Assembly (NCBI RefSeq): GCF_038070105.1 | Contig: NZ_JBBPBZ010000002.1 | Coordinates: forward strand, 2,368,001-2,432,000 | Direction: 5' to 3' | DNA: 64,000 nucleotides | Source: Methylocystis sp. IM3 | GTDB lineage: Bacteria > Pseudomonadota > Alphaproteobacteria > Rhizobiales > Beijerinckiaceae | In this document: positions 4,634-14,446 of the stretch, piece by piece | How positions within the stretch are numbered: the first letter of the stretch is position 1 | How the letters are laid out: the number at the start of each line of letters is the position of its first letter | Notes under the pieces: model-generated | Databases searched by the model: none | The model's input: only the letters and a program-made list of their open reading frames with translations | What the model was told of the DNA's origin: nothing | Program-made: the position numbers and the translations under genes

Positions 4634-5206
4634 GTGAATTACGTCCAAGTGGGATTTACCCCTGCGGAACAAGCGGCAAGACGTAAGCCGACTGCGAAGC
4701 TATTGAGAGAGGGTGAACGGTGGTACGCTGCGCAAACCCTGGCCAATCGCGAGACCGGCGCCCTGTTGCACCTGAATGCGCAAGGCTTCCGAACCTTCCT
4801 GCCTGTGTCTTTGCGAACAGTGAGCCATGCACGCAAATTGAAAACGGTGCGTCGCGCGGTTTTTCCGGGTTATCTCTTCCTCATCCTTGATCTGCAGCGG
4901 GATCGCTGGCGAAGCGTGAATGGCACAAGCGGCGTCTCGCGCCTGGTGATGGGGCGGGATTATCCCTTGGCGGTGCCTGAAGGCGTCGTGGAGACATTGC
5001 TGGACTGCGTCGATGAACAGGGTCTCTGCACGCTGGGTAGGGATCTGCGAGAAGGCGAGAAGGTAAGAGTAATCTCCGGGCCACTGGCGCAGGCCATGGG
5101 GCAACTGGTCAACCTCGATGACAAAGGCCGCGTGCGGGTGCTGCTTGAGATCATGGGCGGCGAGGTCCTCACGACCATGGAGCGGTGCGTCCTCGAGCGC
5201 GCCTGA
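4634..5206 (+). CDS. NusG/RfaH-like transcription antitermination protein (orphan paralogue)
   Basis: The 190-residue protein has an N-terminal NGN domain that binds the RNA polymerase clamp (WYAAQTLANRETGALLHL, then FPGYLFLILDL). A C-terminal KOW domain follows, with GEKVRVISGPLAQAMGQL. Specialised NusG paralogues of this type usually control one long polysaccharide or secretion operon. Here no such operon follows, because the next gene is convergent. I chose the GTG at 4634 because GAGAGGAG ends 5 nt before it; a TTG at 4616 would add six residues but lacks a good ribosome binding site. Confidence 0.8.
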   Translation: MNYVQVGFTPAEQAARRKPTAKLLREGERWYAAQTLANRETGALLHLNAQGFRTFLPVSLRTVSHARKLKTVRRAVFPGYLFLILDLQRDRWRSVNGTSGVSRLVMGRDYPLAVPEGVVETLLDCVDEQGLCTLGRDLREGEKVRVISGPLAQAMGQLVNLDDKGRVRVLLEIMGGEVLTTMERCVLERA

Positions 5207-5242
5207 ATTAGTATAGGGCGCGAGCGCCGCGCTGATGGCCTG

Positions 5243-6412
5243 TCAGGGCTGCAACATCACTTTAATGCAGCCGTCCCTGTGATTACGAAACATCTTGTAC
5301 ATCTCCGGCCCTTCCTCGAGCGCGGCGCGATGCGTGACGACGAAGGAGGGATCGATGTCGCCCCTTTCGACGCGCTCCAGCAGACGCGGCAGGTAACGCT
5401 GCACGGGCGTCTGCGCCATGCGGAAAGTCAGACCGCGATTGATCGCCGAGCCCATCGGAAATTTGTCGATGAAGCCGCCATAGACGCCAACGACCGAAAC
5501 CGTTCCGAAATTGCGGCAACAGTGAATCGCCTGTCGCAACACATGCGGCTGGTCGGTGCCGAGGAAGGTTGCGACCTTCATACGGTCCACCATAGAATCC
5601 AGGCTCGCGGTCGGATCGGGCTCCGTGCCGACTGCGTCGATGCAGGCGTCGGCGCCGCGGCCATTGGTCATGCTCTGGATCGAGTCGTAAATATCGACCT
5701 TGTGGAAATCGAGCGTCTCGGCGCCAGCCTTTTCCGCAAGCGCCAGCCGCTCCGGCACGCTGTCGATGGCGATGACGCGTTCGGCCCCAAGCATGAAGGC
5801 GCTTCGGATCGCGAACTGGCCGACGGGCCCGCAGCCCCATATGGCGATCGTGTCGCCGGGTTTGATGTCGCAAAATTCGGCGGCCATGTAGCCTGTCGGA
5901 AAAATATCCGACAGAAAGAGCGCTTGATCGTCTGATAGCGACTCTGGAATCTTGATCGGCCCTGAGTCCGCGAAAGGCACGCGCAAATATTCCGCCTGGC
6001 CGCCCCTATAGCCGCCAAGCAAATGCGAATAGCCGAAAAGCCCGGCAGGCGAATGGCCCCAGAGCGTCTCGGCCTTCTTGTGGTCCGGATTGGTGCGCTC
6101 GCAGGCTGAATAATAGCCATGCTGGCAGAACCAGCATTCCCCGCAGGAGATGGTGAACGGCACGACGACGCGCTCGCCGACCTTCAGATTCTTCACGGCC
6201 GAGCCAACCTCGACGACTTCGCCCATTGTTTCGTGGCCGAGCACGTCGCCGTCGTGCATCTGTGGAATCACGCCGTCATAGATGTGAAGGTCAGACCCGC
6301 AGATGGCGCAGGCCGTGACCTTGATCACCACGTCGCGCGGATCCTCTATCCCCGGATCGGGAACGCTCTCGCAGCGAATGTCTCCCTTCCCGTGAAAGGT
6401 GAGCGCTTTCAT
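5243..6412 (-). CDS. Zinc-dependent alcohol dehydrogenase (FdhA-like MDR family)
   Basis: Medium-chain dehydrogenase/reductase of 389 residues. It has catalytic-zinc ligands in [13 protein letters not shown] and GHE, a four-Cys structural zinc loop ([16 protein letters not shown]), and a Rossmann motif [13 protein letters not shown]. Overall it resembles the group related to glutathione-independent formaldehyde dehydrogenases and threonine dehydrogenase. In a C1-utilising bacterium an aldehyde or alcohol substrate is plausible, but the sequence does not fix it. I used the Met of [10 protein letters not shown] as start; four residues upstream are also open. Confidence 0.85.
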
Positions 6413-13470: not shown

Positions 13471-14055
13471 GTGGATGCCCGCGACAAGCGCGGGCACGAC
13501 GCGGAGAGAGCCGCCCTTCCCTCCCGTCATGGCCGGGCTCGTCCCGGCCACCCACGCCGGAGGGCGCCCTCACACGGCCCGTGGATGTCCGCGACAAGCG
13601 CGGGCATGACGCGGAGAGAACCGCCCTCCTTTCCCGTCATGGCCGGGCTCGTCCCGGCCACCCACGCCGAAGGGCGCCCTCACGCGGCCCGTGGATGCCC
13701 GCGACAAGCGTGGGCATGACGCGGAGAGAGCCGCCCTCCCTCCCGTCATGGCCGGGCTCGTCCCGGCCACCCACGCCGGACGGCGCCCTCACGCGGCCCG
13801 TGGATGCCCGCGACAAGCGCGGGCACGACGCGGAGAGAGCCGCCCTCCCTCCCGTCATGGCCGGGCTGGTCCCGGCCACCCACGCCGGACGGCGCCCTCA
13901 CGCGGCCCGTGGATGCCCGGGACAAGCGCGGGCATGACGCGGAGAGAACCGCCCTCCCCTCCCGTCATGGCCGGGCTCGTCCCGGCCACCCACGCCGGAG
14001 GGCTCACTCACGCGGCCCGTGGATACCCGCGACAAGCGCGGGCATGACGCGGAGA
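13471..14055. repeat. BIME-like array of alternating palindromic repeats
   Basis: Two related palindromes alternate with a period of 109-110 bp. Type A (TGCCCGCG, 5-nt loop, CGCGGGCA) begins at 13471, 13581, 13691, 13800, 13909 and 14019. Type B (TGGCCGGG, 5-nt loop, CCCGGCCA) begins near 13525, 13635, 13744, 13853 and 13963. The reverse complement of B matches A apart from the stem, so A and B are one element in opposite orientations, as in REP/BIME arrays. Spacers are also repeated, so this is not a CRISPR. A sixth B copy lies at 14413, beyond the GIY-YIG gene. Confidence 0.9.
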
Positions 14056-14065
14056 GAACCGCCCT

Positions 14066-14356
14066 CTAATTCGCGAGATCTTGGTACAGGTCGCGCCACG
14101 ATGGGTTCATGTCCAAGATGAGCCGCACCTTCCACGCGCGAGGCCAGTGCTTCATTGTCTTCTCGCGTTGGATGGCGATGCGAATGTCGTCATGGGGTTC
14201 GTACCAAGCGAGTCGTTTCAGGCCATAGCGCTTCGTAAACCCTTCGATGACGCCCTCGCGGTGCTCCCAGGCGCGTCGCGCGAGGTTGCTCGTGACGCCG
14301 AGATAAAGCGTCCCGTTCGAGCGATTGGTCATAATGTAAACCCAGCTCCCGCGCAT
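14066..14356 (-). CDS. GIY-YIG nuclease family protein, inside the palindrome array
   Basis: A 96-residue single-domain GIY-YIG protein. The first motif is VYIMTNRSNGTLYLGVT (the GIY-YIG strands). The catalytic Arg lies in RRAWEHREGVIEGFTKRYG, and the conserved Glu is near AIQREKTMKHWPRAWK. Small proteins of this family are frequent and often multicopy in Hyphomicrobiales. The function is unknown but a Mg-dependent nuclease is expected. The stop codon TAG is formed at the junction with the palindrome array. GCCCTC flanks the gene segment at 14061-14066 and 14401-14406, suggesting that it inserted into the array. Confidence 0.85.
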   Translation of the reverse strand: MRGSWVYIMTNRSNGTLYLGVTSNLARRAWEHREGVIEGFTKRYGLKRLAWYEPHDDIRIAIQREKTMKHWPRAWKVRLILDMNPSWRDLYQDLAN

Positions 14357-14412
14357 TCTCGAATTGTATAGCTAAAGTCTGTTGTGGCAAGCAGTGGTGC
14401 GCCCTCCCCTCC

Positions 14413-14446
14413 CGTCATGGCCGGGCTCGTCCCGGCCACCCACGCA
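14413..14446. repeat. Isolated palindromic repeat (type B) after the GIY-YIG gene
   Basis: It carries the same palindrome as the type B units of the array at 13471-14055, with TGGCCGGG and CCCGGCCA stems around CTCGT. It is preceded by GCCCTCCCCT, the normal spacer sequence of the array, so it appears to be the right-hand continuation of the array after insertion of the GIY-YIG segment. Confidence 0.85.

Follow-up and report, generated by a model that had tools for sequence, protein, structure and literature searches.

The window considered here is a 64,000-nt stretch of the genome of Methylocystis sp. IM3 (contig NZ_JBBPBZ010000002.1), and positions at this locus are numbered within it. It holds an array in which six copies of palindrome A on the minus strand (starting at 13472, 13582, 13692, 13801, 13910, and 14020) alternate with six copies of palindrome B on the plus strand (starting at 13525, 13635, 13744, 13853, 13963, and 14413), with a period of 109 to 110 bp. 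The 46-nt B units are spaced by 110, 109, 109, and 110 bp and then by 450 bp (i.e., 110 plus 340). An earlier note on this DNA had described the alternation, its period, and its resumption with B at 14413, and the palindrome positions bear this out. The left edge of the array is a single A (13472 to 13501, minus strand). Five head-to-head dimers follow, each composed of a B on the plus strand and an A on the minus strand with the CGTC tags facing outward: dimer 1 (13525 to 13611; B at 13525 to 13554, A at 13582 to 13611), dimer 2 (13635 to 13721; B at 13635 to 13664, A at 13692 to 13721), dimer 3 (13744 to 13830; B at 13744 to 13773, A at 13801 to 13830), dimer 4 (13853 to 13939; B at 13853 to 13882, A at 13910 to 13939), and dimer 5 (13963 to 14049; B at 13963 to 13992, A at 14020 to 14049). 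Dimer 5 adjoins the 3' end of a GIY-YIG nuclease gene (14066 to 14356, minus strand), and the last B (14413 to 14442, plus strand) lies to the right of the gene, on its 5' side. The gene thus occupies an inter-dimer linker running from 14050 to 14412; the gene-less linkers of the array measure 22 to 23 nt between tags. Array length varies between conspecifics: on the left side of the gene, the window has five B-A dimers and the conspecific genome G548 has two, as judged by reading the alignment.

Palindrome B is CGTCATGGCCGGG-loop-CCCGGCCAC-CCA, with one A-C mismatch at the end of the stem, and palindrome A, reversed, is CGTCATGCCCGCG-loop-CGCGGGCAT-CCA. Both have a CGTC tag, a 9-bp stem beginning with AT, a 5-nt loop, and a CCA tail. 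In the parts of the defining paper that we draw on (Di Nocera et al. 2013, PMC3733652), CGTC REPs are described as having a CGTC (or TGTC/CCTC) tag, a stem of 8 to 9 bp starting with AT, a loop of 4 to 5 nt, and a CCA tail, and as occurring mainly as head-to-head dimers. The window palindromes share the tag, stem, loop, and tail of these REPs, and their five outward-tagged dimers share the head-to-head arrangement, which places them in the CGTC REP superfamily. The two arms of a dimer are often different REP variants in other genomes as well, like A and B in the window (G051, G010, G115, and G132).

The gene encodes a protein of 96 amino acids, which scored 45.1 bits against the GIY-YIG profile PF01541 (cutoff, 22.6 bits), so that the GIY-YIG gene proposed in the earlier note at these positions stands. 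Y7, Y18, R28, and E65, which correspond to the conserved tyrosines of the GIY and YIG motifs, arginine, and glutamate of PF01541, were invariant in 23 sequences; we take these residues to be catalytic. The protein, a predicted nuclease, has the motif K69-H-W-P-R73. An AlphaFold2 model of the protein had a mean pLDDT of 94.4. Its best relative among solved structures was 1zg2, a UPF0213 protein (E value, 4.1e-10), and an NCBIfam search assigned the window protein to no family. The median dN/dS ratio of the gene over 55 pairs within one genus was 0.089, and the gene is under purifying selection in that genus. No intron or intein was noticed around it.

The borders of the gene-bearing linker carry a short direct repeat. 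The earlier note had reported GCCCTC at both junctions; the repeat is present and one base longer, 7 bp, with CGCCCTC at 14060 to 14066 and at 14400 to 14406. As proposed, the stop codon of the gene is made at the junction, using its first base. In simulated random blunt insertions into the linker, matches of at least 7 bases arose with a frequency of 4.5e-4, and the match is therefore more than the coincidence that the note had named as an alternative. The note had also proposed a 340-bp insertion into the spacer with duplication of the target. The 340 extra bp are confirmed, and the insertion and duplication are not established by the 7-bp match, because the left copy reads CCCCCTC in G548 (the right copy is the same there) and because a deletion between two short repeats leaves an identical pattern. 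Reading of the window, G548, genus relatives, and Shinella loci showed no consistent target duplication. The repeat fits a duplication generated by insertion and also fits the endpoints of gene loss from gene-less units. By eye, the sequence past the stop codon resembles that found at the gene's other chromosomal sites in the genus, and thus the mobile unit is probably something other than this 340-bp stretch. At one locus (L034 in G095, positions 1134 to 1290), a neighboring array unit consists of the start of the GIY-YIG gene fused to the gene's downstream sequence, and a gene-less unit can therefore arise through internal deletion. At another locus (L061), gene-less linkers were considered as gene remnants, and an alignment gave no support for this.

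The association between the gene and REPs extends well beyond the window. Among 227 nonduplicate GIY-YIG relatives, 171 had a REP within 250 bp, which upholds for related genomes the linkage to palindromes that the earlier note had suggested. This pool combines three sets, minus three duplicates, none of which is a random sample. For the first set, 149 genomes of the window's family were searched, with matches in 85; we examined 79 relatives in 77 loci (30 best and 47 chosen; 47 to 100% identity to the window protein), and a REP lay within 250 bp of 69 of them with a looser detector. REP density in this set was 5.18 per kb near the gene versus 0.121 per kb beyond 1 kb, and reversed strings yielded zero detections. 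The second set came from 398 genomes of the phylum, 149 of which had matches; among the 71 genes examined (29 best loci and 40 chosen), 40 adjoined a REP. The third set, the best 80 of 557 relatives (named loci) retrieved by a GSR-subtype profile, included 64 with a REP, from organisms such as Rickettsia tamurae, a Pseudomonas species, and members of the Bdellovibrionales, Amoebophilaceae, and Nitrospiraceae. The looser detectors were adopted after reading of the flanks, since a strict 9-bp-stem detector missed other REP types. By detector, 56 of the 227 genes had no REP; several of these carry variant palindromes on reading (e.g., TGTCATTCCGACC...GGAGGAATCTT), and a few genes, such as those at L141, L149, L150, and L153, showed no clear palindrome within the 90 nt read on each side. 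REPs stood on both sides of 128 of the 227 genes, with a +- layout in 55, -+ in 31, -- in 22, and ++ in 20. Set beside the terminal inverted repeats and fixed target duplication of an insertion sequence, the layout varied and the loci read showed no consistent duplication; the expectation that relatives would be flanked by palindromes together with short direct repeats was borne out for the palindromes of most relatives and not for consistent repeats.

These frequencies speak against simple colocation, in which REPs and a short gene would both fall between genes by chance. REPs are indeed mostly extragenic. However, in loci of at least 9 kb, a REP was found at 350 of 11,485 random positions (3%), and beside 13 of 192 other open reading frames of at least 150 amino acids versus 48 of 79 GIY-YIG genes. 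None of 14 distant GIY-YIG genes (32 to 37% identity, 13 loci) had a REP beside it. Together with the subtype specificity of the REP type described below, these results make chance colocation very improbable.

Several individual loci deserve description. Two GIY-YIG genes lie close together with REPs at single loci in four cases (L061, positions 5001 to 5756; L082, positions 5001 to 6039; L118; and L119). In Neisseria gonorrhoeae (L336), a relative at 1501 to 1767 is flanked, by reading, by dRS3-like repeats (CGTCATTCCCGC...GCGGGAATCC), one of which, at 1361 to 1387, was also found by the detector; the 2.17-Mb record is labeled a plasmid and is chromosome sized. On a Planktothrix agardhii plasmid (L339), the neighbors of a relative are an MmeI-type gene on one side and the DISARM gene drmA on the other, and TGTCATTCTGA-type repeats flank the relative. 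In Azospirillum lipoferum 4B (L337), the gene at 1486 to 1779 is located between sufB and sufC and has a REP dimer to either side.

The type of REP follows the subtype of the protein. Among 76 proteins with K-x-G at the positions of window residues 69 to 71, 71 were accompanied by CGTCATTGCGAG...GCAATCCA-type REPs or close variants, whereas CGTCATTGCGAG-type REPs accompanied only 3 of the 151 proteins lacking this motif. For HW/HY proteins, the 9-bp-stem REP type was present in 31 of 37. Across the 77 loci, flank similarity rose with protein identity (Mantel r of 0.57, reached by 0 of 2,000 permutations; Spearman coefficient of 0.48 over 2,901 between-genome pairs). Unlike proteins from the same genome (13 pairs with <62% identity) had a median of 1.1% of their flank words in common versus 4.1% for 325 between-genome pairs with at least 68% identity (P = 6e-5), although 2 of the 13 pairs exceeded 3%, which counts against the pattern. 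The same specificity appeared in genome-wide counts, in which REPs beside the gene were also counted and for which subtypes were assigned from the identity of full-length matches. The 32 of 149 genomes with a KHW-subtype gene had a median of 13.5 P2 REPs versus 0 in those without (P = 1.2e-11) and no excess of P1 REPs (P = 0.42); the 22 genomes with a GSR-subtype gene had a median of 49 P1 REPs versus 0 (P = 4e-9) and no clear excess of P2 REPs (P = 0.07), all of these P values ignoring genome relatedness. At least 40 P1 REPs were present in 16 of the 149 genomes that had no full-length GSR-subtype gene, and at least 12 P2 REPs in 12 that had no full-length KHW gene. REPs therefore persist where the enzyme is missing. 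Of these REP-rich genomes, a few hold gene fragments (G125, G128, and G138), and some of the assemblies are incomplete. We are nearly certain that the association between GIY-YIG genes and CGTC REPs, and its subtype specificity, is real.

The gene occurs with its REPs at different places in related genomes. A search of 39 genomes of the window's genus located it at four chromosomal sites, one in the window species (two genomes), one in a group of three genomes, one in a single genome, and one represented by eight loci in seven genomes. At 11 of the 13 genus loci read (L316 and L318 to L329), the closest REP detected to either side of the gene points its tag toward it, and the gene therefore lies between head-to-head dimers; L320 and L322 are the exceptions, each with a degenerate palindrome closest to the gene on one side. 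The site occupied in the window has no REP in G564 or in G535, where the two flanking genes are about 15 kb apart. At the same site, by reading, G114 has a single, slightly degenerate REP at the place orthologous to the right-hand REP B; G546 has one dimer beside the right-hand gene, the left-hand gene being unmatched; and G551, G537, and G538 have dimers of another type (partly by reading). On Shinella plasmids (68 records had a match, and seven of the loci were examined), two loci carry the gene and four REPs as one block (L343 and L344), three retain the flanking region and lack both the gene and the REPs (L345, L346, and L349), and two have a much shorter intergenic region with neither (L347 and L348). 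Gene-free orthologous sites thus exist, with edges that have diverged too far for a recognition site to be defined. Two genes of G019 (L054 and L055), the proteins of which are 94% identical, were considered as evidence of movement and set aside, because the sequence they share runs past the REPs. No usable empty site was found for Rhizobium CIAT894 (L341).

RAYT transposases are low-copy-number genes. RAYT-REP systems, REPtrons, and REPINs resemble what is described here in that short tagged palindromes, often dimers, occur in many copies per genome with a partner nuclease gene among them, as set out in the parts of PMC3733652 that we draw on. The partner there is an HUH transposase of the IS200/IS605 type and the tag is GTAG, whereas here the partner is an unrelated GIY-YIG enzyme and the tag is CGTC, TGTC, or CCTC; unlike GTAG REPs, CGTC REPs predominate in Alphaproteobacteria. 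We found neither of the two defining features of RAYT-REP systems that we examined, an HUH Y1 partner and a GTAG tag. That CGTC REPs are instead mobilized by RAYTs or other HUH transposases, with an incidental GIY-YIG link, is hardly credible. RAYTs are tied to GTAG REPs in the portions of PMC3733652 that bear on them, where CGTC REPs, which include dRS3 and RPE-4 and RPE-6 of Rickettsia, are reported without a dedicated transposase and no tyrosine transposase gene examined was flanked by CGTC sequences. In our own search of 33 REP-bearing genomes, Y1 transposases (PF01797) were present in 8 and were not found in the window's genome or in 24 others, and the detector found no CGTC REP at any of 13 Y1 transposase loci when up to 1.5 kb to either side was taken in. 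With most of the relatives examined adjoining REPs, REP type following subtype, and Y1 genes absent from 25 of the 33 genomes, the separation from RAYTs envisaged in the earlier note is strongly supported.

Other known GIY-YIG systems match less closely. GIY-YIG homing endonucleases such as I-TevI and its free-standing relatives differ in that the proteins here are about 95 amino acids long, comprise the catalytic domain only, and are tied to dispersed palindromes rather than to one allelic site. Slx1-like and UPF0213 proteins are likewise minimal, stand-alone GIY-YIG domains; the window protein is related to UPF0213 (1zg2) but separate from the group with 32 to 37% identity in the same genomes, which was taken as UPF0213-like without a specific test and which, unlike the window type, was the REP-free group. 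In the parts of a GIY-YIG survey covered here (PMC1564403), homing by these enzymes is described, and Penelope-like retroelements are given as mobile elements combining a GIY-YIG nuclease with a reverse transcriptase. The latter are similar in placing such a nuclease in a mobile element, but a unit here, one 96-amino-acid gene with palindromes, is too small to include a reverse transcriptase. The same parts of the survey make no mention of palindromic repeats, the main text of PMC3733652 contains no word beginning with "giy," and word counts for PMC12306157 and PMC6006769 gave no mention of GIY-YIG. We found no report linking GIY-YIG genes with CGTC REPs in a search that left out preprints, took in few subscription papers, and does not prove absence. 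The parts are known already, and the pairing of a GIY-YIG gene with CGTC REPs appears to be new.

We consider it fairly probable that the gene is the partner nuclease of CGTC REPs, acting on them as RAYTs are thought to act on GTAG REPs; the GIY-YIG/REP system probably works like RAYT-REP systems. That the enzyme acts on REPs is the likelier part of this reading, and we hold it with good confidence; that it spreads them is a part toward which we only lean. The enzyme would recognize its cognate REP hairpin, perhaps by means of the K69-to-R73 loop before the last long helix, and would nick or cut it. Repair of the break by copying would allow REP dimers, with or without the gene, to enter new intergenic sites, often near existing REPs, and tandem arrays would grow or shrink through slippage or unequal recombination. 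Copies would lose the gene by internal deletion, so that gene-less dimers would be numerous and each genome would keep one gene or a few.

A different reading would make the enzyme a free-standing, homing-type hitchhiker that cuts REP-bearing sites, into which repair then copies its gene, the REPs being spread by something else. Free-standing GIY-YIG homing enzymes exist, the genes are often found in linkers, within a REP dimer or between two, and many REPs are far from any such gene. Nevertheless, REPs of the cognate type are more abundant where the gene is present, the Shinella loci have the gene and REPs together (two loci) or neither (five loci), and no other mobilizer was seen in the search for Y1 transposases, which were not found in 25 of 33 genomes; we regard this reading as unlikely. 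Less likely still, the enzyme would be a domesticated nuclease of the host whose role is to trim or resolve the hairpins or cruciforms of REPs and so limit the harm they do, and it would remain close to them for regulation. Against this, a host-protective gene needs no REPs at its own ends and the unit is found at different sites in related species.

If the GIY-YIG enzymes are the partners of CGTC REPs, the system could amount to a new class of mobile DNA, in which GIY-YIG nucleases spread CGTC REP dimers (including dRS3 and the RPE-type repeats of Rickettsia) in several phyla, specificity resides in a short motif around residue 71, and the repeats derive by deletion from gene-bearing units; for this broader proposal, we find the balance even. 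CGTC REPs are widespread in Alphaproteobacteria and several other phyla, and the defining paper, in the parts that we draw on, left open what spreads them (PMC3733652). A paired nuclease with a pattern of subtype specificity makes that question directly testable. The pairing would bring a second enzyme superfamily, unrelated to the first, into REP biology, would explain many small database genes annotated as GIY-YIG nuclease family, and would offer a compact candidate for a hairpin-reading nuclease of 95 amino acids.

Further repeats were observed at related loci. Downstream of the GIY-YIG gene at L342, reading revealed head-to-head dimers with a CCTC tag (CCCTCATTCCTGTG...CACAGGAATCCA); two such dimer units are present in L342, L363, and L365, and one is present in L364. 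Rhizobium plasmids have insertions and deletions beside the gene, one of which is owed to another repeat family: on a plasmid of Rhizobium sp. K15/93 (L363, approximately 415 to 500), a palindromic insertion of about 82 bp belonging to that family lies between two genes. It is absent from L342, L364, and L365, and a short flanking repeat is present.
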